A stretch of 21,190 nt of DNA from a virus, in IMG/VR virus record IMGVR_UViG_3300037189_011128, positions 1-21,190 of that record. One strand, 5' to 3'. Both the position numbers and the translations under genes were made by a program. Shown one piece after another: positions 3,523 to 21,190 of the stretch (positions are counted from its first letter, which is position 1; every line of letters starts with the position of its first letter). The notes under the pieces were generated by a model. That model did no database searches, was not told the DNA's origin, and saw nothing but the letters and a program-made list of their open reading frames with translations.

Positions 3523-4628
3523 ACACACACCGCATCATCCTTGGCGACTGCATCGAGGGCATGAAAACTCTGCCTGACGAATGCATCAACACCTGTATCA
3601 CCTCGCCCCCGTACTTCGGGCTGCGTGACTACGGAACCGCAAGTTGGAAGGGCGGCGATCCGAATTGCGATCATGTTGCCGATCCGACCAAGACGAAGAA
3701 GTTCGGCAATCCTGCGTTCAACGAGAATCGTCCGAGCCGTGAACTCACAAAGGTCGAGGGCTACTACTACAAGGATGTCTGTGGTAAGTGCGGTGCAACC
3801 TGTGAGGACTCACAGATCGGTCAGGAGGATACCGTTGAGGGTTATGTCGAGAAGATGGTTGAGGTGTTCCGTGAGGTACGCCGTATCCTGCGTGATGACG
3901 GTACGCTGTGGCTCAACCTTGGTGACTCGTACATGAGCGCAAAGAACTGCGCCCCGCCGCCACAGACTGTTGGTGGTCAGCGTGGTATGCCTTCCGATTT
4001 CATTCCTGCCAACCGCAAGTCACAGACAGGTCTCAAGCAGAAGGACTTGATCGGCATTCCGTGGCGTGTAGCGTTTGCGCTGCAAGCAGACGGGTGGTAT
4101 CTGCGTCAGGATATCATTTGGAACAAACCAAACCCAATGCCCGAGAGCGTTGAGGATCGCTGCACCAAGGCGCACGAGTACATCTTCCTGCTGTCCAAGA
4201 AGCAGAGGTATTACTATGACTTCGAGGCAGTCAAGGAACCCGCTCGTAACTGGGGAACCCGTGACCGCTCCGAGATGCGTAACGGGACTACCGATCCCAA
4301 ACTGAAGCACCACGGGCTACAGGGCAAGGAGTGGGAAGAGAATCCCATGAAGAACAAGCGGTCGGTGTGGACGGTGAACGCCAAGGGCTACAAGGGCGCA
4401 CACTTCGCTGTGTACCCCGAGGAACTCATCAAGCCCTGTGTCCTCGCAGGATGCCCCGCAGGAGGTACGGTGTTTGATCCGTTCACGGGCAGCGGCACGA
4501 CTGCCGTGGTTGCCATGAAGAACGGTCGCAACTACATCGGCACCGAACTGAACCCCGAGTATGTGAAGATCGCAGAGGATCGGATCGCAGAAGAGATCAA
4601 GCCGAGCCTCGTTGATGTCATGGAGTAA
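3519..4628 (+). CDS. DNA methyltransferase, beta class (N6-adenine or N4-cytosine)
   Basis: The 369-aa protein is a complete site-specific DNA methyltransferase. The catalytic motif IV TSPPY is at residues 28-32 and the AdoMet-binding motif I DPFTGSGTT at about 320-328; this order (IV before I) defines the beta class, which modifies the amino group of adenine or cytosine. Between them are well-conserved stretches such as VFREVRRILRDDGTLWLNLG, IPWRVAFALQADGWYLRQDI, NKPNPMPESVEDRC and HEYIFLLSK. A CDH...CGKCGATC segment (about residues 49-95) may bind zinc. The ATG overlaps speD by 4 bases. No restriction enzyme lies nearby, so it is an orphan, most likely shielding phage DNA from host restriction. 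The target site cannot be read from sequence. Confidence 0.93.
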   Translation: MNTHRIILGDCIEGMKTLPDECINTCITSPPYFGLRDYGTASWKGGDPNCDHVADPTKTKKFGNPAFNENRPSRELTKVEGYYYKDVCGKCGATCEDSQIGQEDTVEGYVEKMVEVFREVRRILRDDGTLWLNLGDSYMSAKNCAPPPQTVGGQRGMPSDFIPANRKSQTGLKQKDLIGIPWRVAFALQADGWYLRQDIIWNKPNPMPESVEDRCTKAHEYIFLLSKKQRYYYDFEAVKEPARNWGTRDRSEMRNGTTDPKLKHHGLQGKEWEENPMKNKRSVWTVNAKGYKGAHFAVYPEELIKPCVLAGCPAGGTVFDPFTGSGTTAVVAMKNGRNYIGTELNPEYVKIAEDRIAEEIKPSLVDVME

Positions 4629-5368
4629 TGATGGAATTGGATAAGATCCATCTAGGCGACTGCTTGGAAGTCATGAAGACTTTCCCCGATGACTCGGTGG
4701 ATTTGATTGTCACTTCTCCCCCATACAACAACTGGCGCAACAGAAGAACACAGGCAAACCGAAGTTCGTATTGGAAGCGCACCAACATCGTGTATGAGAA
4801 TCACAACGACAAGCAGTCGGATGATGAGTATGAACAGGGACAGATCGATGTCCTGAATGAGATGCTTCGTGTTCTAAAGCCAACGGGAACGATCTGTTAC
4901 AATCACAAAGATCGCATCTTCAACTTCGAGGTGACAACCCCGATCTCGTGGATAATGAAGTCGAAGGCAGTTTATCGACAGCGTATCACATGGGATCGAT
5001 GTGGGATGCAAGCATACAATCCCGTCAGATTCTACCGTGTAGACGAGGACATCTACATCCTTGGAAAACAGGCAAAGGGATTCAAGTGGAACAAGGATGC
5101 AGCAAAGTACCTGTCTGTATGGAGAATCCCACCAAACAGAAACATCTACGAACACAATGCAACCTTTCCTGAAGAGATAGTGAAGCGATGTGTGAGTGCC
5201 TTCACCGATGTTGGGGATGTTGTTCTTGATCCCTACAACGGAACAGGAACAACAACAAAAGTTGCTTCAGAAATGGCTAGGCATTACATCGGCATAGACA
5301 TATCAGAGAAGTACAACAAGACGGCAAAGGAAAGAGTTCAGCACAACCTAAAAGGAGTCATGGAATGA
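4628..5368 (+). CDS. Second DNA methyltransferase, beta class, acquired-looking
   Basis: This 246-aa enzyme has the same motif order as its neighbour: TSPPY at 29-33 and DPYNGTGTT at 201-209, with EMLRVLKPTGTICYNHKDR and a C-terminal HYIGIDISEKY between and after. It is compact and only distantly similar to the upstream enzyme, so the two probably have different target sites. The start ATG 4628 shares one base with the previous TAA; a second ATG follows at 4631. Base use differs from the neighbours: AGA/AGG arginine codons are frequent (for example in WRNRRTQ, WRIPPNRN and MARHY), A+T is higher, and asparagine/lysine codons are common. That suggests more recent acquisition. No cognate nuclease is visible. 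N6-adenine versus N4-cytosine cannot be settled. Confidence 0.9.
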   Translation: MMELDKIHLGDCLEVMKTFPDDSVDLIVTSPPYNNWRNRRTQANRSSYWKRTNIVYENHNDKQSDDEYEQGQIDVLNEMLRVLKPTGTICYNHKDRIFNFEVTTPISWIMKSKAVYRQRITWDRCGMQAYNPVRFYRVDEDIYILGKQAKGFKWNKDAAKYLSVWRIPPNRNIYEHNATFPEEIVKRCVSAFTDVGDVVLDPYNGTGTTTKVASEMARHYIGIDISEKYNKTAKERVQHNLKGVME

Positions 5369-8392: not shown

Positions 8393-9166
8393 ATGGAACG
8401 GTTCAACTCCTTCGCAACTACCAAGGTTCAGTACCCCCATGTGCATCTGTCTTTCGATGATCACTCGATCACCGATTGGTACACGGTGCGTGGTGTGCTG
8501 AAGTTCAAGAAGGCGAAAGCCGTCTTCTATGTGGACTCGTTCGATGAGTTGGACGATGACGATATCGATAGGCTTCGTGCTTTGCGTTCCGATGGTCATA
8601 TCATCGGTTGCCACAGCGTGAGTCATGCTGATGCGATTGCATACTCCAAGAAGTATGGAATCGACAAGTACATCGAGGACGAAGTGATTCCCGCCATGGA
8701 GTCCATGGCAGCAGCGGGGTTCTCTCCCACTCACTTTGCCTTCCCGAACTCACACTTCGATGAGCCTCTGTATGAAGCGGTATCAAAACTGTTCTGCTAT
8801 GTCAGACCAGGAAACGAAAGCCACTTCTACACCAAGAGCCGAATGTACATTCAGGGTGATCGCCTCAATCATCAGAATGAGACCTGTGAACATCGCATTC
8901 GCAAGGGTGAGATGGTCGGGGTCATCAAGGACATCACCGAACACCTGAAGGCAGACCACGGGATCAGTCTTGTGTTTCATGACATCCGCCGCATTGGTCA
9001 GCCGAAGCATGAAGGTACACAGGCAAGCAATACTGCCTTTATCACCGCAGAAGAGTTGGATACCGTTCTCGCAGCCGTGAATGCTGCGGGGGCTGTCTAC
9101 GAAACCTTTGCTGAACATTGCAAAGTTGGCAAGGATCCGTTTGACAAGCCTGAAGGTCTAGTGTAG
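8393..9166 (+). CDS. Polysaccharide deacetylase (NodB/CE4 family)
   Basis: The 257-aa protein shows the CE4 deacetylase core. Motif 1 is LSFDD with the catalytic and metal-binding Asp22-Asp23. Motif 2 is HSVSH at 74-78, giving two metal-binding histidines. The AFPNSHFDE stretch (from about 125) stands where the family usually has RxPxG, and a late LVFHDI supplies another His. These enzymes remove N- or O-acetyl groups from chitin-like glycans, peptidoglycan or surface polysaccharides. No signal peptide is visible, so it would act inside the cell or on the virion. ATG 8393 has a poor ribosome site. It lies between polymerase and uvsX, separate from the glycan island but plausibly related in function. 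Substrate unknown. Confidence 0.8.
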   Translation: MERFNSFATTKVQYPHVHLSFDDHSITDWYTVRGVLKFKKAKAVFYVDSFDELDDDDIDRLRALRSDGHIIGCHSVSHADAIAYSKKYGIDKYIEDEVIPAMESMAAAGFSPTHFAFPNSHFDEPLYEAVSKLFCYVRPGNESHFYTKSRMYIQGDRLNHQNETCEHRIRKGEMVGVIKDITEHLKADHGISLVFHDIRRIGQPKHEGTQASNTAFITAEELDTVLAAVNAAGAVYETFAEHCKVGKDPFDKPEGLV

Positions 9167-9194: not shown

Positions 9195-9206
9195 GGAGAT
9201 ATCATG
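9195..9206 (+). promoter_or_regulatory. uvsX ribosome site and start, identical to that of regA
   Basis: GGAGATATCATG at the uvsX start equals the regA start region base for base over 12 positions. Other genes in the window use different sequences. It may be a RegA target; this is inference from T4, where RegA acts at start regions of early messages. Confidence 0.35.
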
Positions 9207-10250
9207 AGTTTCTTGAAGAGCCTAGTGAAGAGCAGCGGCAACGAGTTTGCCCGCATCGTGACTGATGGAACCGAAGCCGATGTGTCGGGATTTGTTGACA
9301 CAGGCTCCTACGCATTCAACGCCCTCGTGTCAGGCACTCTGACGGGCGGCATCGCCAACAACAAGATCCTCGGCATCGCAGGAGAGTCTGCCACGGGCAA
9401 GACTTACTTTGCGCTTGGCATCGCAGGACAGTTCCTTGCCGACCACGAGGACGGTGTGGTTCTCTACTTCGACAGCGAACAGGCTGTGACGAGCGACATG
9501 ATCAAGTCCCGTGGTCTTGATCCGTCCAAGGTCGCCGTGTTCCCTGTTGCCACGGTCGAGAACTTCCGCTTTCAGTTGATTCAGATCCTTGACAACTTCG
9601 GTAAGTTGGACAAGAAGGATCAGAAGCCGATCATGGTGGTGCTTGACTCGCTCGGTATGTTGTCCACCTCGAAGGAGATGAACGACACCGCAGAGGGCAA
9701 GGAAGTCCGTGACATGACCCGTTCACAGGTCATCAAGGGAACCTTCCGTACCGTGACCCTCAAGTTGGGCAAATACAACATCCCGCTGATCGTGACCAAC
9801 CACACCTACGATGTCGTGGGTGCGTATGTGCCGACCAAGGAGATGGGTGGTGGTAGCGGTCTCAAGTACTCCGCTTCGACCATCGTCTACCTGTCCAAGA
9901 AGAAGCACAAGGTCAACGATGAGGTTGTGGGCAACATCATTCATTGCAAGACCTACAAGAGCCGCCTGACCAAGGAGAACCGTCAGGTCGATGTCCTGCT
10001 CAACTACGATACGGGACTCGACCGCTACTACGGTCTCGTGGAACTTGGTCTCGCACAGGGAGTGTTCAAGAAGGTGTCGAACAAGATTCAGTTCCCTGAC
10101 GGCACCTCCGCATTCGAGAGCCATATCAACAAGGATCCGCAGAAGTACTTCACCGAGTCTGTAATCAAGGCTTTGGATGAGGCTGCTGCCAAGGAGTTCA
10201 AGTACGGTGTCGGTGAGATCCCCGATGCCGAAGAGGAGACCGAAGAGTGA
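9204..10250 (+). CDS. uvsX: UvsX RecA-like recombinase
   Basis: The 348-aa protein is a T4-type UvsX strand-exchange ATPase (T4 UvsX is 391 aa). Walker A GESATGKT is at 60-67 and Walker B PIMVVLDSL at about 142-150. A segment around SQVIKGTFRTVTLKLGKYNI followed by PLIVTNHTYD matches the RecA-fold core after the ATPase site. The C-terminus is acidic. UvsX coats single-stranded DNA with the help of UvsY and drives recombination-dependent replication and repair. ATG 9204 has GGAG 6 bases upstream and its own host-type promoter. In T4 the downstream genes are 40 and 41; here a 10.5-kb island separates uvsX from gene 41. Confidence 0.95.
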   Translation: MSFLKSLVKSSGNEFARIVTDGTEADVSGFVDTGSYAFNALVSGTLTGGIANNKILGIAGESATGKTYFALGIAGQFLADHEDGVVLYFDSEQAVTSDMIKSRGLDPSKVAVFPVATVENFRFQLIQILDNFGKLDKKDQKPIMVVLDSLGMLSTSKEMNDTAEGKEVRDMTRSQVIKGTFRTVTLKLGKYNIPLIVTNHTYDVVGAYVPTKEMGGGSGLKYSASTIVYLSKKKHKVNDEVVGNIIHCKTYKSRLTKENRQVDVLLNYDTGLDRYYGLVELGLAQGVFKKVSNKIQFPDGTSAFESHINKDPQKYFTESVIKALDEAAAKEFKYGVGEIPDAEEETEE

Positions 10251-11023
10251 GCCGCCTAGTAGTCAAGATGCCAACCCGTGGCAGACCACAGAAGTTTGTG
10301 TCTGTCCTTGATCGGTACATCAACTTCTGCTCGGGGATGCAGGATGTGCAGTTCCTGATCTCCATGGATCATGATGATCCAACGATGAACAACCCCAACA
10401 TGATCTCGCTGCTTACCCGTATGCAGAATCAGTTGGATGGTCGCATTCACTTCGCTTATGGCTCATCCAAGAGCAAGATCGAAGCATGCAACGCCAACAT
10501 CGAGATGCTGCGCCGACTGAATCCCGACATCATTCTTCTCGCTTCTGACGATATGATTCCAATCGTCAGCGGCTACGATGACATCATCTGCAAGGACATG
10601 GGTAAGCACTTCCCCGATACGGATGGGGTGCTGCACTATGACGATGGATTCTCGGGCAAGGACAAGTTGATCACCTTGAGCATCCTTGGTCGCAAGTACT
10701 TCGAGCGTTTCGGGTACATCTACCATCCTGAGTATAAGAGTGTGTTCTCTGATGACGAGTTCACACAGGTTGCCCGTCTGATGAACAAGGTGGTCTATAT
10801 CGACCGCTGCATCATTCAGCATCAATGGGTGGGCATTCCATATGTTCAGGCACAGCAGGGACAGATCGCTGCCGAACAGATTCGCAGAGATCCCGTACAC
10901 GAGCGCAACGAGTCGCAGGAGATGTATGACCACGACCGTGGTGTCTATGAGCGTCACAAGGCAAGCAACTTCGGTATCGCTGTGAAGGAGGAAGCCCATG
11001 CGTCCATGGCGACCAACTCATAA
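10247..11023 (+). CDS. Glycosyltransferase-like protein (GT-A, GT2-type)
   Basis: The 258-aa protein begins with VVKMPTRGRPQKFVSVLDRY, a start typical of GT2-like transferases, continues with LISMDHDDPTMNN, and has LLASDDM at 98-103 as the probable DxD-like metal and nucleotide-sugar site. DGFSGKDKLITLSILGRKYF and a late FSDDEFTQVARL fit acceptor-side regions. The GTG start overlaps the uvsX stop (GTGA) and has an AGAGGAGA site upstream, so it is coupled to uvsX. It is the first gene of the glycan island. Donor sugar and acceptor are unknown. A predicted soluble protein, it would act in the cytoplasm. Confidence 0.7.
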   Translation: MSRLVVKMPTRGRPQKFVSVLDRYINFCSGMQDVQFLISMDHDDPTMNNPNMISLLTRMQNQLDGRIHFAYGSSKSKIEACNANIEMLRRLNPDIILLASDDMIPIVSGYDDIICKDMGKHFPDTDGVLHYDDGFSGKDKLITLSILGRKYFERFGYIYHPEYKSVFSDDEFTQVARLMNKVVYIDRCIIQHQWVGIPYVQAQQGQIAAEQIRRDPVHERNESQEMYDHDRGVYERHKASNFGIAVKEEAHASMATNS

Positions 11024-11597
11024 GTTGTCGATTCTTGTACCATCACTCAACAGCCGTAAGGACAAGTTGCAGCAGTTGATGGCTATGCTTCAGCCACAGA
11101 AGCGAGACAATGTGGAGATCATCGTCCTTGGTGATGATGGTCAGATGTCCATTGGGCAGAAGCGGAATATGCTTCTCATGCAGTCGCATGGTGAGTATGT
11201 TTCCTTTGTCGATGACGATGACATGGTTCCCAACGACTATGTGGATCGCATCGTGAATGCACTAGCCAAGCACAACCCCGACTGCACCTCTCTGACGGGG
11301 CGCATCGTGTTCTCGGATGGCTACAGCCGCCCGTTCGTCCATTCCCTGCGGTATGACCGTTGGATCGATGACCACGACAACAAGGTCTACTACCGTCCAC
11401 CCAATCACCTGAACGCAGTTCGTCGTGACCTAGCGGTTAAGGTTGGATTCCCTCAAGTAAACCTCGGAGAAGATCGGCACTTCTCCGTCAACATTCGTCC
11501 ACTCCTCAAGAAGGAAGCATGGATTGATGGTGAACTCTATGAGTATCGTTGCCGTAACACATTTGAACAGACCCACAACAATCAGGTGAAGCGATGA
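10998..11597 (+). CDS. Glycosyltransferase family 2-like protein
   Basis: The 199-aa protein has the GT2 N-terminal pattern LSILVPSLNSRKDKLQQL, then EIIVLGDDGQMSIGQKRNML and a strong metal site FVDDDDM (Asp72-Asp75). A later LGEDRHFSVNI probably holds the catalytic base. It is short for a GT2 enzyme but seems to cover the full nucleotide-binding and acceptor halves. ATG 10998 lies 26 bases inside the previous gene, with a strong AAGGAGGAA ribosome site. It shares the MSIGxK...DDDD layout with the protein at 19587, so these two look like paralogues at the two ends of the island. Sugar and acceptor unknown. Confidence 0.8.
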   Translation: MRPWRPTHKLSILVPSLNSRKDKLQQLMAMLQPQKRDNVEIIVLGDDGQMSIGQKRNMLLMQSHGEYVSFVDDDDMVPNDYVDRIVNALAKHNPDCTSLTGRIVFSDGYSRPFVHSLRYDRWIDDHDNKVYYRPPNHLNAVRRDLAVKVGFPQVNLGEDRHFSVNIRPLLKKEAWIDGELYEYRCRNTFEQTHNNQVKR

Positions 11598-12496
11598 AAG
11601 TATGCGTAACAGGCGGTGCAGGATACATTGGTTCCCATCTCGTCTCTGTCCTTGCATTTCAGGGACATGAGGTGGTGGTCGTTGACAACTTGGAGAATGG
11701 CAATCGTATCCACCCGAAGTGCCAGTTCTTCTCCCATGACATTCGTGAGATCAACGACATCGAAGATCGGTTGCAGGGAACCGAAGTGTTCTTTCATCTA
11801 GCCGCAGACAAGCGGGCAGCATCCGAGGAGTACTACGAGATGGTCTCCGCTAATGTGGCGGGCACCGCTGCCGTCCTAGAGACCGCAAAGAAGGTCGGCG
11901 CACGGCGCATGGTTTTCTCTTCGTCCTGTGCCGTCTACACCAAGGGGATGTATGACCGTGGCATCGTCTCCGAATCAGCCGCCGATGCCGAGCGGGGTAC
12001 GCAGCAGAATGTCTATGGCTTGAGCAAGTTGCTCTGCGAGGATCTCTGCAAGTTCATGTCTGATGACAAGTTCTCATGCATCAACCTACGATACTTCAAT
12101 GTATGGGGTGGGCAATACTTGGATTCGGCACCCGTCCACAAGTCCGTGATTGAGATCTTTGCCGACAAGAAGCGCAAGGGTGAACCCATCATGATCTATG
12201 GAGACGGTGGTACGGTTCGTGACTTCGTCCATGTCAACGATGTCGTAAAGGCAAACCTGTTGGCTGTGGATCACGCCCCACGCACGGGTGCGACCACCTT
12301 CAACATCTGCAACAACAAGGCAACCACGGTTCTAGACATTGCCAAGAAGGTCTGTGGAGAGGACTACCCGATGGAATACAAGCCTATGCGGGGAAACGAA
12401 CTCCCGTGGTGCGTGGGGTCAAACGCCCTTGCAGCCTCGGAACTCGGATGGGTTCCAGATCACAGCATCGATGAGTTGACACCCGATTCTTATTGA
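11594..12496 (+). CDS. NAD-dependent sugar epimerase, UDP-glucose 4-epimerase-like
   Basis: The 300-aa extended short-chain dehydrogenase has the NAD-binding GGAGYIG at 7-13, the FHLAA segment at 67-71, a catalytic Ser region VFSSSCAVY (around 108-115) and Tyr141/Lys145 in YGLSK. RYFNVWG and a YGDG...RDFVHVNDV stretch are typical of GalE-like enzymes. The likely reaction is interconversion of UDP-glucose and UDP-galactose, or of similar hexoses. The next gene is UDP-galactopyranose mutase, which uses UDP-galactose, so GalE-type activity is the best guess. The ATG overlaps the previous stop (ATGA). Other epimerases or dehydratases of the family cannot be excluded. Confidence 0.88.
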   Translation: MKVCVTGGAGYIGSHLVSVLAFQGHEVVVVDNLENGNRIHPKCQFFSHDIREINDIEDRLQGTEVFFHLAADKRAASEEYYEMVSANVAGTAAVLETAKKVGARRMVFSSSCAVYTKGMYDRGIVSESAADAERGTQQNVYGLSKLLCEDLCKFMSDDKFSCINLRYFNVWGGQYLDSAPVHKSVIEIFADKKRKGEPIMIYGDGGTVRDFVHVNDVVKANLLAVDHAPRTGATTFNICNNKATTVLDIAKKVCGEDYPMEYKPMRGNELPWCVGSNALAASELGWVPDHSIDELTPDSY

Positions 12497-12509
12497 ACTG
12501 AAGGTTTCC

Positions 12510-13595
12510 ATGTACGACTATCTCATTGTGGGGTCGGGTCTATTCGGCTCCATCTTCGCTCGTCAGATGACTGATAGAGGGGCGAAGTGCCTTGTCATCG
12601 ACAAGAGAAACCATATCGGAGGCAACTGCTATACCAAGGATGTTGGGGGTATTCATGTTCATGAGTACGGACCACACATCTTTCATACGAGCAGCGACCG
12701 TGTGTGGGAATACATGAATCGGTGGACGAAGTTCAATCACTTCGTCTATCGCCCAAAGGTTTCAAACAAGGGACAGGTCTATTCCTTTCCGATCAACCTG
12801 TTCACTCTGTATCAACTGTGGGGCGTGAGCAATCCTGCCGATGCAAAGCGTAAGTTGGACGAGGTCAAGGTAAAGATCGAGAACCCCTCGAACCTTGAGG
12901 AGTGGATCCTGTCACAGGTTGGTGAGGAGATCTATCACAAGTTCGTCTATGGCTACACCAAGAAGCAATGGGGACGAGACCCCAAGGAACTGCCCGCTTC
13001 GATCATCAAGCGTCTGCCCATTCGCCTGACCTTCGATGACAACTACTTCGAGGACAAGTATCAGGGCATCCCTATTGGTGGCTACACCGCCATATTTGAG
13101 AAGTGGCTCGATGGTATTCCTGTCGAGACGGGCGTTGACTATCTCAAAGAAAAGGATCGCTTCGATGCCATGGCAAAGCGTGTGGTCTACACAGGACCAA
13201 TCGATGAGTTCTTTGGCTGTGACCTTGGGAGACTCGAATGGAGAAGCCTACGCTTCGACCATGAGATCCTGACGGGAGACTTTCAAGGCAACGCTGCTTT
13301 CAACTACACGGATGAGTCGGTTCCATACACTCGCATCTGCGAACACAAGCATTTCGAGTTCGGCAAGCAGGAGCATACCGTCATCACCAAGGAGTATCCG
13401 CAGAGTTGGGATCCTTCTCGTGAGAAGTTCTATCCCCTGAATGATGAAGAAAACAATGCTCTCTACGCAAGATACAAGGAGAGGGTTGACAGCAACCGAT
13501 ACATACTTGGTGGTCGTTTGGCAGACTACAAGTACTACGATATGCACCAAGTAGTCGGATCAGCACTCGTGAGATCCGATAAGGAAACATCATAA
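12510..13595 (+). CDS. glf: UDP-galactopyranose mutase
   Basis: The 361-aa flavoprotein matches Glf (bacterial enzymes are about 367-390 aa). It has the FAD-binding GSGLFG at 8-13, HIGGNCYTK at 35-43, the signature GPHIFHT at 54-60, then VYSFPINLFTLYQLWG, YGYTKKQWGRDP, and PIGGYTAIFEKWL. The C-terminal GGRLADYKYYDM is the usual last FAD-binding region. The enzyme converts UDP-galactopyranose to UDP-galactofuranose, the donor for galactofuranose residues in bacterial surface glycans. With the epimerase just upstream this forms a two-step route from UDP-glucose. ATG 12510 has a GAAGG site. Very few phage genomes that I know of carry this gene with its epimerase. Confidence 0.95.
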   Translation: MYDYLIVGSGLFGSIFARQMTDRGAKCLVIDKRNHIGGNCYTKDVGGIHVHEYGPHIFHTSSDRVWEYMNRWTKFNHFVYRPKVSNKGQVYSFPINLFTLYQLWGVSNPADAKRKLDEVKVKIENPSNLEEWILSQVGEEIYHKFVYGYTKKQWGRDPKELPASIIKRLPIRLTFDDNYFEDKYQGIPIGGYTAIFEKWLDGIPVETGVDYLKEKDRFDAMAKRVVYTGPIDEFFGCDLGRLEWRSLRFDHEILTGDFQGNAAFNYTDESVPYTRICEHKHFEFGKQEHTVITKEYPQSWDPSREKFYPLNDEENNALYARYKERVDSNRYILGGRLADYKYYDMHQVVGSALVRSDKETS

Positions 13596-14431
13596 TGAAG
13601 ATCGTGATTGCGAATCAATTCAAGAACGAAGGAAAGCGTCTCCGTGAGTGGCTTGAGTACTACCGTGATCGTGGGATCACCGACTTCGTGTTGGTGAATG
13701 ACCACTCGACTGACAACTCGATTGAAGTCATCAATAGCGTTGCGGGCGTGAATGTCACGGTGATGGACTCGCCGTTCAACAACCTTCAATTCAACAACTC
13801 GAAGGACACCGAACACTACAAGGGCAACATCGCTCTTGCGGAAACTATCTCCACCAACTTTAGAAGAGTGCATCAATTCGTGTTGCAGAAGTATGGTCGT
13901 GAGACTATCCTTGGCTTCTTCGATGTTGACGAATACCTTGTGGGCAAGAGCAAGGACTTGGCAACAATCATCAATGACACGGCTTCGCAGTATCTCGTGT
14001 CTTCTGTATGCTCCTTTGAGATCGACTCGGATACCATTGATCTTGATTCGGATGTTCCGTTCATCAAGCAGACAACGAGATCCACATCCACTAGCAGCAG
14101 ATATAGATGCACTAGAAGATCAACCGTAAAGTCATTTGCGAATCTGAATAGAAAGGATTCCGACTTGATCTTCTCGGTTCCGATGCATGCGTTTGGTGAG
14201 TCGATTCATTGTTGTGGTGTGCCGTCCAAGAGATTGGGATTTGATGCCAAAGGCAATCCTGAATATGGTCACTATGTCTCACAGCCAATGAACGATACCG
14301 ATGAGTGCATCACCGATGGAAGACTGTGCTTGGTTGCTCCGAAGACCATGAAGATGCTTCACTATCGGAAGCCTTCGTATGACCATGCGGTCAACAAGCC
14401 ACTTTTCGACACCGACCACACAATCGTTTAA
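13595..14431 (+). CDS. Glycosyltransferase, GT92/GT2-like
   Basis: The 278-aa protein starts with the pattern of the GT92 and related families: NQFKNEGKRLREWLEYYRDR, then VLVNDHSTDNS, and the metal site FFDVDEYL at 108-115. A later MHAFGESIHCCG and MLHYRKPSYDHAVNKP fit the C-terminal acceptor half. Residues about 158-176 are rich in Ser, Thr and Arg and use AGA codons heavily; the frame stays open, but this stretch looks unlike the rest and is either a variable loop or a locally shifted frame. The ATG shares one base with the glf stop, so galactofuranose transfer is a natural idea, though unproven. Confidence 0.8.
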   Translation: MKIVIANQFKNEGKRLREWLEYYRDRGITDFVLVNDHSTDNSIEVINSVAGVNVTVMDSPFNNLQFNNSKDTEHYKGNIALAETISTNFRRVHQFVLQKYGRETILGFFDVDEYLVGKSKDLATIINDTASQYLVSSVCSFEIDSDTIDLDSDVPFIKQTTRSTSTSSRYRCTRRSTVKSFANLNRKDSDLIFSVPMHAFGESIHCCGVPSKRLGFDAKGNPEYGHYVSQPMNDTDECITDGRLCLVAPKTMKMLHYRKPSYDHAVNKPLFDTDHTIV

Positions 14432-14445
14432 ACGGAGCCTATACT

Positions 14446-15120
14446 ATGAAGGTCATCTCATTTGGTCTATGGGGAAGCGATCCCCGATACATCGATGGAG
14501 CAGAGACGAATGTCTTGCTAGCACGGAGGTTCTATCCCGGTTGGCAACTGTGGTTCTTTGCCGATCAGACCGTACCAGCCGACACCTTGAACATCCTTGC
14601 CCGTCAGCCTGACTGCCGAGTCATGATTGCCGACAGCACCAAGGAGCGGCAGCATCGTCTGTTCTGGCGGTTCTGGGCTGCGTCCTACCCCGAGGTGGAC
14701 ATCATGCTCATCCGTGATACCGACTCTCGTATCGGTCAGCGTGAGCAGTTGGCTGTGCAGGATTGGCTCACCAACCACAATACGGGCTTTCACATCATGC
14801 GAGACAGCCCGCAGCACAGCGTCCCCATGTGCGGGGGTATGTGGGGTTGTAGAGCAGAACGCCTACGCAACATTCGGCAACTGATCAATCAATACTACGA
14901 TAACGGTCGTGATAAGGATGTTCGTTTCGGTGTGGATCAGGACTTCCTGATGGAGGTAGTCTGGCCTTTCTATGCCCAACACGATTGCACCGAGCATGAT
15001 GAGTTCTTCGCCAAGAAGCCATTTCCATACATCCCTCGTCAAGAGAAGTATTATGTGGGTCGGGCATTTGGAACCACTTGCCCCGACTTCGCACAGCACA
15101 CCAAGAAACTACCGAGATAA
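14446..15120 (+). CDS. Conserved glycosyltransferase-like protein with DTD motif
   Basis: The 224-aa protein begins MKVISFGLWGSDPRYIDGAE and has LFWRFWAASYPEVDIMLIRD with DTD at 91-93, then FHIMRDSPQHSVPMCGGMWG. That series recurs in uncharacterised GT-A-like proteins of bacterial and phage glycan loci; the WRF...RDTDSR and HIMRD...GGMWG blocks would form the nucleotide-sugar site. The full fold appears present at a normal length for this group. ATG 14446 has an ACGGAG site 9 bases upstream. Donor and acceptor unknown. I rely on remembered motif pattern for the family. Confidence 0.7.
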   Translation: MKVISFGLWGSDPRYIDGAETNVLLARRFYPGWQLWFFADQTVPADTLNILARQPDCRVMIADSTKERQHRLFWRFWAASYPEVDIMLIRDTDSRIGQREQLAVQDWLTNHNTGFHIMRDSPQHSVPMCGGMWGCRAERLRNIRQLINQYYDNGRDKDVRFGVDQDFLMEVVWPFYAQHDCTEHDEFFAKKPFPYIPRQEKYYVGRAFGTTCPDFAQHTKKLPR

Positions 15121-15123
15121 ATC

Positions 15124-15984
15124 ATGAAATCAGATAAGATCATCTTCACTTGCTCCGAACAGTTCAGCCCCTTCTGGAACTTGCAGTCACAGATTTGGAA
15201 GACCAAGATGGGTATCGAGCCTGTCCTCCTGCTATTTGGTAAGAAGGAGAACACGAATGTCTCCGAGGAGTTCGGCAAGGTACATGAGATGGAGACTGAT
15301 AGCAGCGTTCCTGCGATTCTTCAGGTGACCATGTCGAAGTTCATCTTCCCGTCAGTCGAACCCGAGACCACATGGATGATCGGGGACATCGACATGCTCC
15401 CGCTACAGACAAACTACTTCACCAAGCGAATCGAAAGCATTCCGAGTGATGACAATGTATATGCTCATCTGAACTTCTGTGGCATCTCGCAGAGCATGAG
15501 AGTGGATCCAAGAGTGTTCTTTCAGAAGGGCGGTCAGACCACGGGTGGTGTGAACCTACCGGGACATTACCACATTGCCAAGGGTAAGGTATACGGCAAC
15601 CTGTTTGCACAGAATCGAACCATTGTTGATGTTGTTCGTTCTATGGTCGATTCGAAGCGATATGGAATGTTTGATCCTGCCGTACAGAAGTACATCGGGC
15701 TTGACCCGACCATGCACGGTAGCCATTGGTGTGCCGAGGAGGACTACACGAGCGAGATTCTCGCCGTCAAGGCAAGGAACAACGAGATCAACTTCCAAGG
15801 CATATGCTACGACAACCGCAACGAGCGAGTTGACCGTGCTGTGTGGAATCCAAAGACGAGGTCGTATGCATTCGATCCCAATCGTTTGATCGAAGGTCAA
15901 TATGTTGACATCCATTGCCACCGTCCCTATCATGAGCAGGAAGATGCCCTGAAGACCATCCTCAAGATGGCTAACATGATCTGA
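15124..15984 (+). CDS. Glycosyltransferase-like protein, tandem copy 1
   Basis: The 286-aa protein has MKSDKIIFTCSEQFSPFWNL at its start, GIEPVLLLFGKKENT at 30-44, and TWMIGDIDMLPL with GDID at 87-90 as a DxD-type metal site. The end reads YVDIHCHRPYHEQEDALKTI. The next gene codes for a clear relative with the same blocks in the same order, so the pair arose by duplication. The fold is probably GT-A; the family name is not known to me. The start codon follows the previous stop by 3 bases with only a weak ribosome site, so translation is probably coupled. Confidence 0.65.
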   Translation: MKSDKIIFTCSEQFSPFWNLQSQIWKTKMGIEPVLLLFGKKENTNVSEEFGKVHEMETDSSVPAILQVTMSKFIFPSVEPETTWMIGDIDMLPLQTNYFTKRIESIPSDDNVYAHLNFCGISQSMRVDPRVFFQKGGQTTGGVNLPGHYHIAKGKVYGNLFAQNRTIVDVVRSMVDSKRYGMFDPAVQKYIGLDPTMHGSHWCAEEDYTSEILAVKARNNEINFQGICYDNRNERVDRAVWNPKTRSYAFDPNRLIEGQYVDIHCHRPYHEQEDALKTILKMANMI

Positions 15985-15996
15985 TAGAGGTCACCA

Positions 15997-16902
15997 ATGA
16001 AGATCGACAAGATCGTCTTTTCGTCAACTGAACCATACAGCGACTACTGGAATCTGCAAGCAGAGGTTTGGAGCAACATGGGCATCGAGCCTGTGTTGTT
16101 GCTTTGGGGCAAGAAGGAGAACACCAAGGCAACCGAGAAGCATGGGCGCATCGTGGAGATGGAGTATTCTCCCGATGCAATCAAGTCCTTGCAGATGACC
16201 TTGAGCAAGTTCTACTACACGCAGACAGAGCCTGAAGCGACTTGGCTCACGGGAGACATCGACCTGTATCCCCTTCAGCGGAAATGGTTCACCGAAACAG
16301 TCAAGGACATTCCTGATGACTGCTATGCTCACTTGTCCGCTACTGCTCTGACATCCAAGAAGGGCAACATCAGTTGGCACACCCATGGTGGGTTCGTTGG
16401 TGGTGGTCAAGACTTGGTTGCTTACTTCCACGCTGCGAAGGGCAAAGTGTTCAACGATGTCTACAAATTCGATGGTATCTCGCTGACCGACTATGTCAAC
16501 AAGATCGTGGCAACAGGTAAGTACGGCAGACACATTCCTGAAGAGTGCAAGACGATGTCCCCAAAGGAGATTGCCGCTTTCACAGGAAGCCTGTCCAAGG
16601 ATCACACGAATCAGCCATATTGGTGTGCAGACGAAAACTACACATCAGATGTCTTGTGGGAGGCTGCAAAGAACGGTTTGGTCAAGTGGAAGGGTGTGTT
16701 CTATGACTTGATCAATTGGGAAAACCCATATCAATCGAACCGCATCGACCGCCACTTTTGGCACGGCGGAAACTACCAAGGCGTTGACTTGGCTCGATTG
16801 AAGAACAATGGATACACAGACATCCATTGCTCCACCCCATTTGCGCCACAGGAAAACGATCTGACCGACATTCTCCGTTTGGCAGGGATGATCAAGCGAT
16901 GA
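15997..16902 (+). CDS. Glycosyltransferase-like protein, tandem copy 2
   Basis: The 301-aa paralogue of the preceding protein shares KIDKIVFSSTEPYSDYWNLQ, GIEPVLLLWGKKENT, TWLTGDIDLYPL (GDID at 86-89), YWCADENYTSDVL (versus HWCAEEDYTSEIL in copy 1) and YTDIHCSTPFAPQENDLTDI. By eye about a third or more of residues match. An extra segment at roughly residues 180-200 explains the length difference. The two copies have diverged enough to have different substrates. ATG 15997 is preceded by AGAGGT. Family function is inferred from the DxD site and context only. Confidence 0.65.
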   Translation: MKIDKIVFSSTEPYSDYWNLQAEVWSNMGIEPVLLLWGKKENTKATEKHGRIVEMEYSPDAIKSLQMTLSKFYYTQTEPEATWLTGDIDLYPLQRKWFTETVKDIPDDCYAHLSATALTSKKGNISWHTHGGFVGGGQDLVAYFHAAKGKVFNDVYKFDGISLTDYVNKIVATGKYGRHIPEECKTMSPKEIAAFTGSLSKDHTNQPYWCADENYTSDVLWEAAKNGLVKWKGVFYDLINWENPYQSNRIDRHFWHGGNYQGVDLARLKNNGYTDIHCSTPFAPQENDLTDILRLAGMIKR

Positions 16903-18296
16903 ATCTGATTTGCGTATCTGGCAGTTCGGGTGTGGGCAAGACCACACTCACGAAGTTGATCGAGAGTGTCATTGGCTCCGACAACGCTGTCTGCTTGAGT
17001 GGTGATGATCTCCATCTTTGGGAACGCAACGATCCCATGTGGAACACATACACACACCTCAACCCAAAGGCTAACGATCTCGAAACAGGTCATGCCCACA
17101 TCGATGCATTGAAGAGCGGTGAGGCGATCACTCGTAGGCACTACAATCACGACACAGGCAAGTTCGATCCTCCAATCACCATCGAACCAAAGCCTTATGT
17201 CATTTACGAGGGTCTCCATGCCCTGTATTACGCCGATACATCTGCCATCTGTATCTTTGTTGACACGGATGATGCCCTGAAGACCGAGTGGAAGGTCAAA
17301 CGGGACACCAAGAAGCGTGGCTACACCGAGTCACAGGTGATGGACACCATGCGGCGCAGGAAGCAGGACGAGGATCTGTACATCACTCCACAGCGTAACT
17401 CCGCAGACATCGTGGTCAAGTTCACCAAGGATAGAGGCGGCTCCATCTCGTTGGAGTATGTCAACATCACCAACAAGGGTTGGGATCTCATGTCCAAGGT
17501 AAAGGATTTCTATGATTCCCTGAACGAGTTCATGGGCATCTGCAAGTCCCTCTCGCTCGATCCCTCGCTCACGCAGGGGCGTGGGGGCAATGTGTCCGTG
17601 AAGTCAAAGAGTGGGTTGATCGTCAAGGCATCGGGAGCAAAGATGGCTGACATCAATCTGCACCACGGATTCTGTGTGTGCCGTACTGATGGCTATATGC
17701 CCATGTTCACCACCGAGGAAGAGTACAACGACTACATTGGTGGATCGAAGAAGGTTGGTGTCGGTAGACCTTCGATGGAGACGGGCTTCCATGTCGCCAT
17801 GAAGGATCGAGTCATTGTTCACACCCATCCCATCCATCTGAATGCTCTCCTTTGCAGCAAGGAGGCACGGGCGATTCTCAAGGGACTCTTCCAAGACCTG
17901 TCATATGAATTCGTAGAGTACACCGTGCCTGGTATGGAACTCGTGAACCGCATTCGTGATAGCAAGGGCATCCTGTTCCTAGAGAACCATGGACTCATCG
18001 TCGGTGCAGATACCGCAGAGGAAGCCATGAGCATCACCGAGGAGATCAACAACAAGTGCAAGCGATGGCTAGGTAATCATGTAGAGTCTTTCGTGGACTT
18101 CGATGAGAACGATACTGAAACGAATCTCCCGCTGTTCCCCGATGCAGCCGTGCTGCCCGAAGAGATGTCTCCAACCAACAACTACATACTACGGTTGATG
18201 ACGGGGGCTTGCCTGACTCCGAAGTTCCTTGACGAGTCGCAAGTCAAGCACCTCAATGACATGACATCCGAGAAATACAGGAAGGCTATACCATGA
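16899..18296 (+). CDS. Fusion: PRK/uridine-kinase-like kinase + class II aldolase
   Basis: The 465-aa protein joins two enzymes. Residues 1 to about 190 are a P-loop kinase of the phosphoribulokinase/uridine kinase type: Walker A GSSGVGKT at 8-15, LSGDDLHLWE at 33-42, HYNHDTGKFDPP at 81-92 and IYEGLHALY at 102-110. Residues about 205-450 are a class II aldolase/adducin domain: GGNVSVK at 229-235, KASGAKM, PSMET with Glu294, HTHPIHLN with zinc ligands His308 and His310, and ENHGL with His364. Zinc ligands and nucleotide site are intact, so both halves should be active. Such a fusion could phosphorylate a small alcohol or sugar and cleave, epimerise or dehydrate a phosphosugar. ATG 16899 overlaps the previous stop. 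It is followed by a nucleotidyltransferase, suggesting a route to an activated compound. Exact substrates unknown. Confidence 0.88.
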   Translation: MNLICVSGSSGVGKTTLTKLIESVIGSDNAVCLSGDDLHLWERNDPMWNTYTHLNPKANDLETGHAHIDALKSGEAITRRHYNHDTGKFDPPITIEPKPYVIYEGLHALYYADTSAICIFVDTDDALKTEWKVKRDTKKRGYTESQVMDTMRRRKQDEDLYITPQRNSADIVVKFTKDRGGSISLEYVNITNKGWDLMSKVKDFYDSLNEFMGICKSLSLDPSLTQGRGGNVSVKSKSGLIVKASGAKMADINLHHGFCVCRTDGYMPMFTTEEEYNDYIGGSKKVGVGRPSMETGFHVAMKDRVIVHTHPIHLNALLCSKEARAILKGLFQDLSYEFVEYTVPGMELVNRIRDSKGILFLENHGLIVGADTAEEAMSITEEINNKCKRWLGNHVESFVDFDENDTETNLPLFPDAAVLPEEMSPTNNYILRLMTGACLTPKFLDESQVKHLNDMTSEKYRKAIP

Positions 18297-19120
18297 AGAT
18301 CGTGATTCCGATGGCAGGGACGGGCAATCGTTTCGTTGAGAAGGGTTACGCTGACCCCAAGCCGCTCATCAAGGTGAACGGCAAGCGCATCATCGAATAC
18401 ATCCTAGACATGTTCGACCGCAAGAAGGACGAGTTCGTCTTCATCTGCAATGATGTGCATTTGAAGACCACCGACATGGAGAAGATCCTCAAGGAACTCG
18501 TGCCGAATGCCAAGATCGTCTCGATGCCGCAGCACAAGTTGGGTCCGGTCTATACGGTCAAGACTGTCTATGACTTGATCGAAGACAACGAGGAGGTCAT
18601 CATCTCCTACTGCGACAACCCGCACCTGTGGGATCGCAAGGACTTCGAGAAGGCGATGAAGAAGGGCAAGTTCGATGGATGCGTCCTCACGCACACGGGC
18701 TTCCACCCACACACGCTGGCGCACACGAAGATGGCGTTCGTCAAGGGTGAGAACGGTGTCCTTGAGGAGATCAAGGAGAAGGCTTGCTACACGGACAACC
18801 CGCTGAATGAGCATGCGTCCACGGGCGTGTACTACTTCAAGAAGGGTTCGTACATCAAGAAGTACTTTGAGCAAGCCATGAAGGAAAACATTCAGTACAA
18901 CGGTGAGTACTATGTGACACTCGTGTACAACCTTCTTGTGAAGGATGGTCTCAAGGTCGGTTACTACGATACTCCGTTCGTCACCGTCTTCGGCACCCCC
19001 GAGGAGGTCGAGAACTTCGAGTCTTGGGCAAAGATCCTCAAGGGTGGGCAAGCCTCGCACCCGCTCCATGCAGCGGCTTGCTTCGAGTACTGGAGCGAAT
19101 ACCACAAGTTGACATCATGA
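18293..19120 (+). CDS. Sugar-phosphate nucleotidyltransferase-like protein
   Basis: The 275-aa protein has the N-terminal signature of NTP-transferases: IPMAGTGNRF at 5-14, followed by YADPKPLIKVNGKRIIEYIL, with Lys23 in the place of the catalytic lysine. VIISYCDNPHLWD at about 103-115 stands where the family has its metal-binding Asp. Such enzymes join a phosphorylated sugar or alcohol to a nucleotide, releasing pyrophosphate. The ATG overlaps the kinase-aldolase stop (ATGA), so its substrate may well be that enzyme's product. The C-terminal half is shorter than in dTDP-glucose synthases and has no left-handed beta-helix, so it is a single-domain enzyme. The nucleotide (CTP, UTP or other) is not clear. 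Confidence 0.85.
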   Translation: MKIVIPMAGTGNRFVEKGYADPKPLIKVNGKRIIEYILDMFDRKKDEFVFICNDVHLKTTDMEKILKELVPNAKIVSMPQHKLGPVYTVKTVYDLIEDNEEVIISYCDNPHLWDRKDFEKAMKKGKFDGCVLTHTGFHPHTLAHTKMAFVKGENGVLEEIKEKACYTDNPLNEHASTGVYYFKKGSYIKKYFEQAMKENIQYNGEYYVTLVYNLLVKDGLKVGYYDTPFVTVFGTPEEVENFESWAKILKGGQASHPLHAAACFEYWSEYHKLTS

Positions 19121-19590
19121 TCTACATTTCTCACCGTGGCAATCTGAACGGGATCAATCACTCCCGTGAGAACTCGCCAACCTATATCGATGAGTGCATC
19201 AACAAGGGGTTTCATTGCGAGATCGATCTTCGCATGAAGGACGGCGTTCCTCATTTGGGGCACGACACGGCAGACTACCCCGTCACGATCTCGTGGCTAC
19301 AGGATCGTTGCATGTGGCTGTGGATCCATGTCAAGGAGTACGAGGCTCTGATGTGGCTGATGAAGACCATGCCGTGGGCGAACTACTTCTGCCATGAGTC
19401 CGATAAGTACACCCTCGTTAGCAATGGTATGGTTTGGTGTCACGACCTGACAAACGAAATGAATGCAAACTGTGTGATCCCGCTTTTGTCGAAGGAATCT
19501 GTCGATTCCTATGGACAGACGGGCTTCGGTGCGGTATGCTCCGACTTCATCTACGACTGCGTAGCCAAGTTCAACAAGGACAATTCATGA
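19117..19590 (+). CDS. Short GDPD-like phosphodiesterase
   Basis: The 157-aa protein starts MIYISHRGN with the His6-Arg7-Gly8 motif of glycerophosphodiester phosphodiesterases, and continues with CEIDLRMKDGVPHLGHD (residues 34-50), giving the Glu35, Asp37 and His49 expected at the metal and catalytic site. The family normally has about 240-300 residues in a TIM barrel; this one is much shorter, so it is a minimal or C-terminally reduced version. It begins inside the stop of the nucleotidyltransferase (ATGA) and ends in the start of the next gene. In context it may hydrolyse a phosphodiester in a glycan or its nucleotide-activated precursor. No signal peptide, so cytoplasmic. Confidence 0.75.
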   Translation: MIYISHRGNLNGINHSRENSPTYIDECINKGFHCEIDLRMKDGVPHLGHDTADYPVTISWLQDRCMWLWIHVKEYEALMWLMKTMPWANYFCHESDKYTLVSNGMVWCHDLTNEMNANCVIPLLSKESVDSYGQTGFGAVCSDFIYDCVAKFNKDNS

Positions 19591-20231
19591 GCAATGTGAA
19601 ACTCACCATCGGCATCCCAACGATTCCGAATCGAAACCGCAGATACCTCGAACCCCTGTTCTCCAAACTCATGGGACAGGTCGGCAACGAAAAGGATGTT
19701 GAGATCATCGCCCTGATGGACAACAAGATGATGTCTATCGGACGCAAGAAGACCCTGCTCTTCAGCATGGCTAGCGGCAAGTATGCATGCCTGATTGACG
19801 ATGATGACGATGTGACCGATGACTTCGTGGCTACACTTCGTTCCGTGATCAACGATCAGTTGGATGTCGATGTCATTTGCTATGATCAGGAAGCGGACAT
19901 CAACGGGAAGAAGTGGCTCGTCAAGTCCAACCTGAACCACAATCGCAAGCATCCGTTTGATCAGTTGCAAGTCGATCAGCATGGCAACCCTGTGCCCTGC
20001 AAGCGTCCCCCGTGGCAATGGTGTGCTTGGAAGACCTCGTTCATCAAGAACATCCCGTTCGGTGACTCGAACTGGGCAGAGGACGCAGCGTTCACCCTAG
20101 CCGCCGTAGAAGCAGCCAAGAGCCAACTCGTCCTCGACAAGGTGCTATGCAAGTACCGCTACTCACCTTCCGTGTCCGAGGCTCCGCAGCAGAACATTAC
20201 ACCCAATCAAATGAATCGAGTCCAACTCTAA
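19587..20231 (+). CDS. Glycosyltransferase family 2-like protein
   Basis: The 214-aa protein reads LTIGIPTIPNRNRRYLEPLF at its start, EIIALMDNKMMSIGRKKTLL, and a metal site LIDDDDD at 69-75. SNWAEDAAFTLAAVEAAK near the end contains the usual ED catalytic region. Block order and spacing match the 199-aa protein at 10998, so the two are paralogues. ATG 19587 overlaps the GDPD-like gene stop (ATGA). The PPWQWCAWKTSFIKNIPFG segment is typical of GT2-like phage and bacterial transferases. Donor and acceptor unknown. Confidence 0.8.
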   Translation: MSNVKLTIGIPTIPNRNRRYLEPLFSKLMGQVGNEKDVEIIALMDNKMMSIGRKKTLLFSMASGKYACLIDDDDDVTDDFVATLRSVINDQLDVDVICYDQEADINGKKWLVKSNLNHNRKHPFDQLQVDQHGNPVPCKRPPWQWCAWKTSFIKNIPFGDSNWAEDAAFTLAAVEAAKSQLVLDKVLCKYRYSPSVSEAPQQNITPNQMNRVQL

Positions 20232-20240
20232 AGGAACATC

Positions 20241-20804
20241 ATGGAACACATCTATCAGAATCCGAACTTCGGTGAGAACTGGTTTACCTATCCCAAACTG
20301 TACTCTTGGTTTGTTCAGAACCTATCCAACGGCTCGAAGATCGTTGAGGTCGGTTCATGGAAGGGCAAGAGTGTTGCATACCTTGGGGTTGAGATCGTCA
20401 ACTCTGGCAAGGACATCAAGGTCGATGCCGTGGACACTTGGATGGGTTCTCCCGAGTCTCCCGATCACCTAAAGGATGTCTATGTCAGGACGAATACTCT
20501 CTATTCGCTGTTCCTTGCCAACATCGCTCCTTTGTCTCATGTGATCAAGCCGATTCGCATGGCATCGGTTGATGCTGCCAAACTCTACGAAGACAATTCT
20601 CTCGATGCGGTGTTCATCGATGCGGGTCATACCTATGATGCCGTAAAGGCAGATATCGCTGCTTGGCTTCCCAAGGTCAAGGTGGGCGGCATCCTTGCGG
20701 GTCATGACTACGCATGGAGCGATGATGTTCGGCGGGCAGTTGATGAATCGATTGCCCCCATCGATGAGACCGAGGGCTGCTTCGTCTTCAAGAAGGTTCA
20801 GTAA
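20241..20804 (+). CDS. Class I SAM-dependent methyltransferase (Methyltransf_24-like)
   Basis: The 187-aa protein has the AdoMet-binding motif I KIVEVGSWKGKSVAYLG at about residues 33-49, an acidic VDAVDTW at the end of strand 2 (about 62-68), LDAVFIDAGHTYDAVKADIA and VGGILAGHDYAW at about 146-157. This layout matches small methyltransferases found in sugar and glycan gene clusters. It could methylate a sugar hydroxyl, capping a glycan or changing a precursor. ATG 20241 has an AAAGGAA site. It is the last gene before the promoter of the helicase. The precise acceptor cannot be told; a small-molecule or protein methyltransferase remains possible. Confidence 0.85.
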   Translation: MEHIYQNPNFGENWFTYPKLYSWFVQNLSNGSKIVEVGSWKGKSVAYLGVEIVNSGKDIKVDAVDTWMGSPESPDHLKDVYVRTNTLYSLFLANIAPLSHVIKPIRMASVDAAKLYEDNSLDAVFIDAGHTYDAVKADIAAWLPKVKVGGILAGHDYAWSDDVRRAVDESIAPIDETEGCFVFKKVQ

Positions 20805-20808
20805 GTAC

Positions 20809-20837
20809 TTGACTTCCCCAGGTTTTGGTGGTAAGAT
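20809..20837 (+). promoter_or_regulatory. Sigma70-type promoter before the helicase gene
   Basis: -35 TTGACT (20809-20814), 17-base spacer and -10 TAAGAT (20832-20837) lie just after the methyltransferase stop. Predicted initiation at about 20844 is only two bases before the chosen ATG at 20846, so the message would be nearly leaderless unless start or promoter is misassigned. Confidence 0.55.
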
Positions 20838-20845
20838 CTATCCAA

Positions 20846-21190
20846 ATGTCCACCGACAAAATTGAACTCGTTGTACTGCGTAACTTGCTGTACAACGCCG
20901 AGTACACCCGCCGTGTCCTTCCCTTCCTCAAGGAGGACTACTTTCACGACCCGTGCGAACGGCGGCTTTTCAAGACCGTTGAAGACTTCATTCAGAAGTA
21001 TTCATCGTCACCAACATCGGAAGCCCTGAACATCATCCTGTCCGAGCAGGATGGTGTCTCACAGGGTGAGTATGATAGTTGTGCCAAACTGATCGAAGCG
21101 TTGTCTTCAAGCAAGGACATCGAAAACGAACCCGAGTGGCTGATTGAGCAGACCGAGAAGTTCTGCAAGGACAAGGCGGTCTACAACGCC
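20846..21190 (+). CDS. 41: Replicative helicase gp41, N-terminal part
   Basis: The frame is open from ATG 20846 to the right edge (115 codons). LRNLLYNAEYTRRVLPFLKE followed by DYF near the N-terminus, and WLIEQTEKFCKDKAVYNA at the edge, match the N-terminal domain of T4-superfamily gp41, the DnaB-type hexameric helicase that unwinds DNA ahead of gp43 and loads the gp61 primase. The Walker motifs would lie beyond the window. There is no clear ribosome site before ATG 20846; upstream in-frame GTG 20828 and TTG 20825 also lack good ones and overlap the promoter. In T4, gene 41 lies close to uvsX; here the glycan island stands between. Confidence 0.9.
   Translation, partial: MSTDKIELVVLRNLLYNAEYTRRVLPFLKEDYFHDPCERRLFKTVEDFIQKYSSSPTSEALNIILSEQDGVSQGEYDSCAKLIEALSSSKDIENEPEWLIEQTEKFCKDKAVYNA

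Follow-up and report, generated by a model that had tools for sequence, protein, structure and literature searches.

The locus at 11594–14431 of a viral DNA fragment raises the question of what a phage would do with a putative sugar epimerase, a UDP-galactopyranose mutase (glf/UGM) and a glycosyltransferase (GT) encoded side by side and, in particular, which sugar they would deliver and onto which acceptor. Galactofuranose (Galf) does not occur in animals and is widespread on the surfaces of bacteria and fungi. The original prediction was a phage-encoded, two-step route to UDP-Galf, with the transferase attaching the sugar, either to the particle itself or to host structures.

A compact sugar island in a T4-like phage

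The window, i.e., the whole stretch of DNA analyzed here, is a 21,190-base virus fragment, in which the polB (around 50% identity) and UvsX (61%) proteins have their closest counterparts in T4-like cyanophages. A 28,157-base IMG/VR contig was 100% identical to it over the mutase region. In line with the phage origin initially proposed, the polB and uvsX affinities and this near-identical contig identify the window, on sequence grounds, as DNA of a T4-like phage.

The sugar genes are tightly packed in a compact island (10247–20804), which is located between uvsX and the gene for the replicative helicase and encodes no membrane proteins. The start of the island overlaps the uvsX stop codon and its end precedes the helicase gene, which runs out of the window, while start and stop codons overlap at three junctions (uvsX/GT, GT/epimerase and mutase/GT). 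Because of the overlap with the uvsX stop, the island is probably expressed together with the replication genes; no T4-type late promoter (TATAAATA) was found in the window. The island and its borders comprise the following features:

9204..10250, + strand: uvsX recombinase, left border of the island; 61% identical to cyanophage UvsX
10247..11023, + strand: glycosyltransferase-like gene overlapping the uvsX stop; phrog_14945 glycosyltransferase, 1.7e-13
10998..11597, + strand: GT2 glycosyltransferase; PF00535, 6.7e-10; phrog_14775
11594..12496, + strand: GalE-like NAD-dependent nucleotide-sugar epimerase, 300 aa; PF01370, 1.3e-45; GalE 4zrm; NAD motif; YxxxK
12510..13595, + strand: UDP-galactopyranose mutase (glf/UGM), 361 aa; TIGR00031; 1i8t; active-site residues kept
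13595..14431, + strand: GT-A glycosyltransferase, Glyco_tranf_2_4/GT92-like, candidate galactofuranosyltransferase, 278 aa; DVD motif at 110–112
14446..15120, + strand: island protein without assigned family, bordering the exchangeable mutase and GT block; homologues in many UGM islands
15124..15984, + strand: GT-A-fold glycosyltransferase (GT6/GT8-like fold by AlphaFold2 and Foldseek), tandem paralogue 1; D88-I89-D90 invariant
15997..16902, + strand: second tandem paralogue, from the glycosyltransferase family of the first; 40% identical to 15124–15984
16899..18296, + strand: PRK/uridine-kinase-like domain fused to a class II aldolase domain; PF00485, 6e-37; PF00596, 2.6e-17
18293..19120, + strand: nucleotidyltransferase-like (MobA/GlmU-like) protein; PF12804, 1.4e-08; phrog_3980, 4.6e-62
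19587..20231, + strand: GT2-like glycosyltransferase; phrog_8858, 1.1e-25
20825..21190, + strand: start of a putative DnaB-type replicative helicase, identified by eye, right border of the island, leaving the window; full ORF (479 aa) on the near-identical contig

With regard to the island members outside the locus in question, the 14446–15120 protein had no Pfam or PHROG match, and the tandem paralogues (15124–16902) reached the cut-off of neither a Pfam nor a PHROG family. The AlphaFold2 model of the first paralogue (mean pLDDT 82) had LgtC as its best Foldseek match (1.8e-06). Homologues of the kinase–aldolase fusion, with 61–92% identity, occur in 11 other viral contigs, where a nucleotidyltransferase-like gene always comes next. 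The latter gene is followed in the window (span 18293–19590) by a small ORF that resembles phosphodiesterases (phrog_34507, without a Pfam family over cut-off), and this pair recurs in many UGM islands. Two further observations concern the DNA upstream of the island, namely a weakly polysaccharide-deacetylase-like protein in the polB–uvsX interval (8393–9166), which is kept in close relatives, and two adjoining ORFs (3519–5368) that appear DNA methyltransferase-like by eye (DPPY-like motifs).

Mutase, epimerase and adjacent transferase

The coordinates and order of the three reading frames were as initially described, with 13 intergenic bases between epimerase and mutase and a 1-base overlap (TAATG) between the mutase stop and the GT start. 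Similarly, the epimerase start overlaps the stop codon of the preceding GT (ATGA).

The expectation of a clear UDP-galactopyranose mutase was borne out. The protein scored 358.6 bits against TIGR00031 (NCBIfam), over the equivalog cut-off of 303.75, matched PF03275 (GLF; 4.2e-75, Pfam) and had E. coli Glf (1i8t; 2.8e-129) as its closest solved protein. In an alignment of 171 mutases, residues G8/G10/G13, H56, H59, W156, R170, R247, R278, Y311, Y346 and D348 (E. coli numbering) were kept; the checked catalytic residues are intact, as are the FAD-site positions, whose loss had been named beforehand as evidence against the route. Position 59 is His in 169 of the 171 aligned mutases, that of the window included, and Arg in the Campylobacter enzyme 4mo2, which we take to be a GalNAc-accepting mutase in which Arg59 accompanies use of the GalNAc sugar. 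Given this His in place of the Campylobacter Arg, the enzyme of the window resembles an ordinary Galp mutase, and His59 argues against a GalNAc-type mutase. Compared with five relatives, pS values were 0.69–0.92 and pN values 0.13–0.17, with synonymous sites near saturation, and the mutase is under strong purifying selection. By family and residues, the product of 12510–13595 is a bona fide UDP-galactopyranose mutase, and would be expected to be catalytically active.

A tree of 104 mutases placed the window enzyme within a clade of 69 rows (SH-aLRT 100) that is nearly all viral and whose bacterial members are Planctomycetota, at around 60% identity, and one short MAG contig. Mutase phylogeny, proposed as a means to find the donor lineage, thus gave a negative answer: with the mutase nested in a phage-dominated clade, a recent bacterial donor was rejected for the collections used. 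The 72% identical mutase of apparent bacterial origin lies on a 6.4-kb contig (L085) from a Crocinitomicaceae MAG bin, which also carries a homologue of the window gene at 19099–19590 and is probably phage DNA wrongly assigned to a bacterial MAG.

The designation of the upstream gene as a GalE-like epimerase held with regard to its motifs and best family, but not at the level of an equivalog. The protein harbors an NAD motif (GGAGYIG, residues 7–13) and the catalytic YxxxK (YGLSK, residues 141–145), its best NCBIfam family is GalE (TIGR01179), and its closest solved relative is GalE of T. maritima (4zrm; 4.1e-36); however, its TIGR01179 score of 158.9 bits is below the equivalog cut-off of 262.3. 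Because of this score, we refer to the protein as GalE-like and to its activity as that of a putative UDP-Glc/UDP-Gal 4-epimerase. Furthermore, Cys273 aligns with the gate-position Cys of a Streptococcus GalE, and the protein scored 92.1 bits against the E. coli entries 1lrk/1lrl, presumably the Y299C variant of GalE that also takes N-acetyl sugars, compared to 87.4 bits against the wild type. Both features would be compatible with a broad epimerase.

As for the downstream gene, described originally as a GT92-like transferase overlapping the mutase stop, the overlap was confirmed and GT92 (PF01697; 6.1e-07) was matched at 29.7 bits, over the Pfam gathering cut-off of 23, but Glyco_tranf_2_4 (PF13704; 2.6e-13) fits better, with 50.7 bits against a cut-off of 27.5. 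Residues D110-V111-D112-E113 are invariant, and the protein had no match in the named-phage collection. The AlphaFold2 model (mean pLDDT 61) was good for residues ~1–60 and ~80–130 and poor beyond residue ~140. Its best solved fold match was the plant GT92 enzyme GalS1 (8d3t), with 12–13% identity, and the solved AfGfsA appeared among the fold matches only as a generic GT-A protein, at rank 42. The fold match supports a GT-A/GT92 assignment and, since only residues ~1–140 of the model are confident, says nothing about the donor. As we take the solved GT92 enzymes to use a pyranose donor (UDP-Galp), the case for a Galf donor rests on gene linkage and not on family: linkage suggests that the transferase uses UDP-Galf, and it could also be a Galp transferase.

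Linkage among viral loci and a natural sibling pair

In the 34 viral loci whose mutases are closest to that of the window, an epimerase gene was located within 20 nt of the mutase gene in 21 and within 1 kb in 27; these loci include near-duplicates, so that the independent events are fewer than 21. The mutase-side epimerases belong to two subfamilies, only around 32% identical to each other, and are encoded upstream of the mutase in the window and in two other loci (L005, L033) and downstream of it in others (L007, L010 and more). Because unrelated subfamilies pair with the mutase in two gene orders, which is hard to explain otherwise, a shared epimerase–mutase pathway is indicated. This recurrent adjacency agrees with the predicted functional coupling of the two enzymes.

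With regard to linkage of the transferase, a profile search of viral contigs retrieved 18 GT relatives, seven lineages scoring at least 297 bits and the rest at most 33 bits. In all seven high-scoring lineages, a mutase gene lay next to the GT gene or was separated from it by a single gene, upstream or downstream, and no mutase was found near the relatives at or below 33 bits. As the profile derives from mutase-neighbour loci, this test is not fully blind, the scan itself being mutase-independent; this linkage rests on few lineages, and the pattern search was limited in sensitivity. Searches of the viral contigs with a single epimerase or GT sequence reached less far than the profile search. 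That the transferase travels with the mutase was thus seen in 7/7 lineages, and both genes are missing from a sibling of the window.

This sibling contig (L173) matches the window at 87% DNA identity over 14434–20807 and at 70% over 10985–12119. It keeps the epimerase (57%) without the mutase and GT, its epimerase stop lying at 1525 and the next gene start at 1545, and identity to the window jumps to 87% just before the start of the 14446–15120 gene. No mutase was found elsewhere on its 22.7-kb record. Conversely, in another contig (L004), mutase and GT are present without an adjacent epimerase. On the basis of the contents of these two contigs, the exchangeable unit would be the mutase together with the GT, and the epimerase a separable supplier. 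The original three-gene grouping therefore stands for the mutase and GT, which are linked, but not for the epimerase, which occurs alone in L173 and is missing beside the pair in L004. Accordingly to their gene content, L173 and the window form a natural sibling pair without and with the mutase and GT block, and we read this block as a putative galactofuranose-adding cassette fed by the epimerase.

Acceptor of the sugar and relation to known systems

In the proposed pathway, the GalE-like epimerase would convert host UDP-glucose into UDP-galactopyranose, the ring of which would be contracted by the mutase, with reduced FAD, to yield UDP-galactofuranose, and the GT-A transferase (13595–14431) would then, as its linkage suggests, attach the Galf residue. 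Mutase and transferase would constitute an exchangeable cassette, with the epimerase also serving an island devoid of both. With regard to the acceptor, 22 T4-like UGM islands were searched for multi-TM proteins (proteins of at least 100 aa), and 21 of them encoded none with two or more predicted TM segments, the sole exception being a short ORF located at the edge of its contig (L003). Similarly, the initiating sugar transferase PF02397 was absent in 20 of 20 records. Both results argue against a self-contained export pathway, and a self-contained LPS/capsule export locus was rejected on these grounds. As the island lacks genes for a membrane transporter, an initiating transferase and a ligase, the acceptor should be reachable from the cytoplasm, and would most likely be a virion protein or a glycan already present on one, i.e., particle decoration. 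We give an even chance to this account as a whole, in which a cytoplasmic glycan-building island carries a UDP-Galf cassette and a virion protein is the most likely acceptor. Its more specific form, in which the mutase and a novel GT92-like transferase with UDP-Galf as donor make up a mobile galactofuranosylation cassette that modifies virion proteins with Galf and is swapped between phage lineages to vary the particle surface, is tentative, and we hold it to be rather doubtful.

The closest competitor retains the UDP-Galf chemistry and places the sugar, at the cytoplasmic face, on the host LPS core or on a lipid-linked intermediate, which the host would export and which would block superinfection or re-adsorption. 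Peripheral cytoplasmic GTs could act on such substrates without a phage transporter, bacterial Galf is mostly a surface sugar, and the probable expression of the island with the replication genes, together with the absence of the late promoter from the window, would suit an effect on the host; however, the islands lack a transporter, polymerase, initiating transferase and ligase, and a virulent phage has little time for envelope remodelling, although neither point is decisive. We regard modification of host LPS as a serious but improbable option, and infer that virion decoration is roughly twice as likely. A product other than Galf would result if epimerase and mutase acted on another sugar pair (UDP-GlcNAc/UDP-GalNAc or a pentose), as the sub-cut-off GalE score, the gate-position Cys and the higher score against the presumed Y299C entries than against the wild type might suggest; this seems unlikely in view of the mutase His59, which is shared with E. 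coli Glf and nearly all aligned mutases and differs from the Arg59 of 4mo2.

Least probable, and very unlikely in our judgement, is that the GTs add Gal or Galf to phage DNA, in the manner of the T4 beta-glucosyltransferase encoded at a neighbouring locus. In its favor are the T4-like nature of the phage, the consecutive thymidylate-synthase family, T4-type beta-glucosyltransferase and mutase genes of Lactobacillus phage ATCCB, and a Galf-transferase-like protein of phiVPE25/phiVFW that was proposed to modify glycosylated phage DNA (PMC4999554). However, the beta-glucosyltransferase domain PF09198 was matched by none of the ten sugar-island proteins of the window in a Pfam scan. DNA glycosylation of the T4 type would need a thymidylate synthase-family hydroxymethylase, and it is disfavored by the absence of PF00303 (thymidylate synthase/dCMP hydroxymethylase family) from 24 of 25 mutase-bearing viral records, four of 113–174 kb included, the window itself being a genome fragment.

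A phage with its own predicted UDP-Galf enzymes and a linked transferase would be a tractable source of Galf-transferases, and the sibling pair with and without the block would make particle glycosylation in T4-like phages a testable case. Annotated mutases occur in 88 phage records, among them those of Rhizobium, Agrobacterium, Aeromonas and Streptococcus phages, and nucleotide-sugar epimerases were matched in 180 phage records. Phage mutases are mentioned in PMC6630229, PMC10611076 and PMC9611531, any role assigned to them there being an effect on the host cell wall, and no description of a phage epimerase–mutase–transferase module was found in the open-access literature, in which phage UGM appears only as annotations. 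Phage mutases as such are already known; the fresh point is that the mutase and GT block is gained and lost together. Particle decoration would also correct the usual view that phage UGM does no more than affect the host cell wall.

Two loci of cultured phages are worth recording separately. In Lactobacillus phage ATCCB (MK504445; L084, 4043–7098), a thymidylate-synthase family gene, a beta-glucosyltransferase gene (PF09198, 9e-22) and the mutase gene are consecutive, a locus that is a candidate for Gal or Galf on modified phage DNA and is separate from that of the window. In the Straboviridae phages IME13 (L166, 3276–5458) and Erwinia FBB1 (L167, 4992–7117), the mutase gene lies beside motA and is followed by a gene for a 353–358 aa phrog_14998 protein, a candidate transferase partner of the mutase with no Pfam match and no convincing PDB match.

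The mutases of Agrobacterium phage Atu_ph04, Rhizobium phage P10VF, Sinorhizobium phage phiM9, the Aeromonas phage 25 group, Stenotrophomonas phage IME13, Erwinia phage FBB1 and Lactobacillus phage ATCCB belong to the same family as that of the window and come from large tailed phages, T4-like in several cases (PMC6630229), but they are only 31–45% identical to it, and the annotated flanks in six records (P10VF, phiM9, ATCCB, Atu_ph04, IME13 and FBB1) are not an epimerase plus a window-type GT. For virion decoration as such, mycobacteriophages offer a precedent, with phage-encoded O-glycosylation of their capsid and tail proteins (Freeman et al. 2023, via PMC11652166). Compared to bacterial Glf (E. 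coli 1i8t; TIGR00031), the window mutase is alike in its full length, family score over the cut-off, FAD and catalytic positions and His59, and belongs instead to a phage-dominated clade, with Planctomycetota (around 60%) as its nearest true bacterial relatives. The epimerase shares with GalE (TIGR01179; T. maritima 4zrm) the fold, the NAD motif, the YxxxK and the best equivalog match, and differs in its score below the cut-off and in extra active-site-loop residues, which are common to a phage homologue (L005). Finally, the transferase resembles the GT92/Glyco_tranf_2_4 enzymes, in that both Pfam families are matched over their cut-offs and GalS1 (8d3t) is its best fold match, and is set apart from GalS1 by its low identity (12–13%) and by its linkage to a mutase, which suggests a furanose donor.
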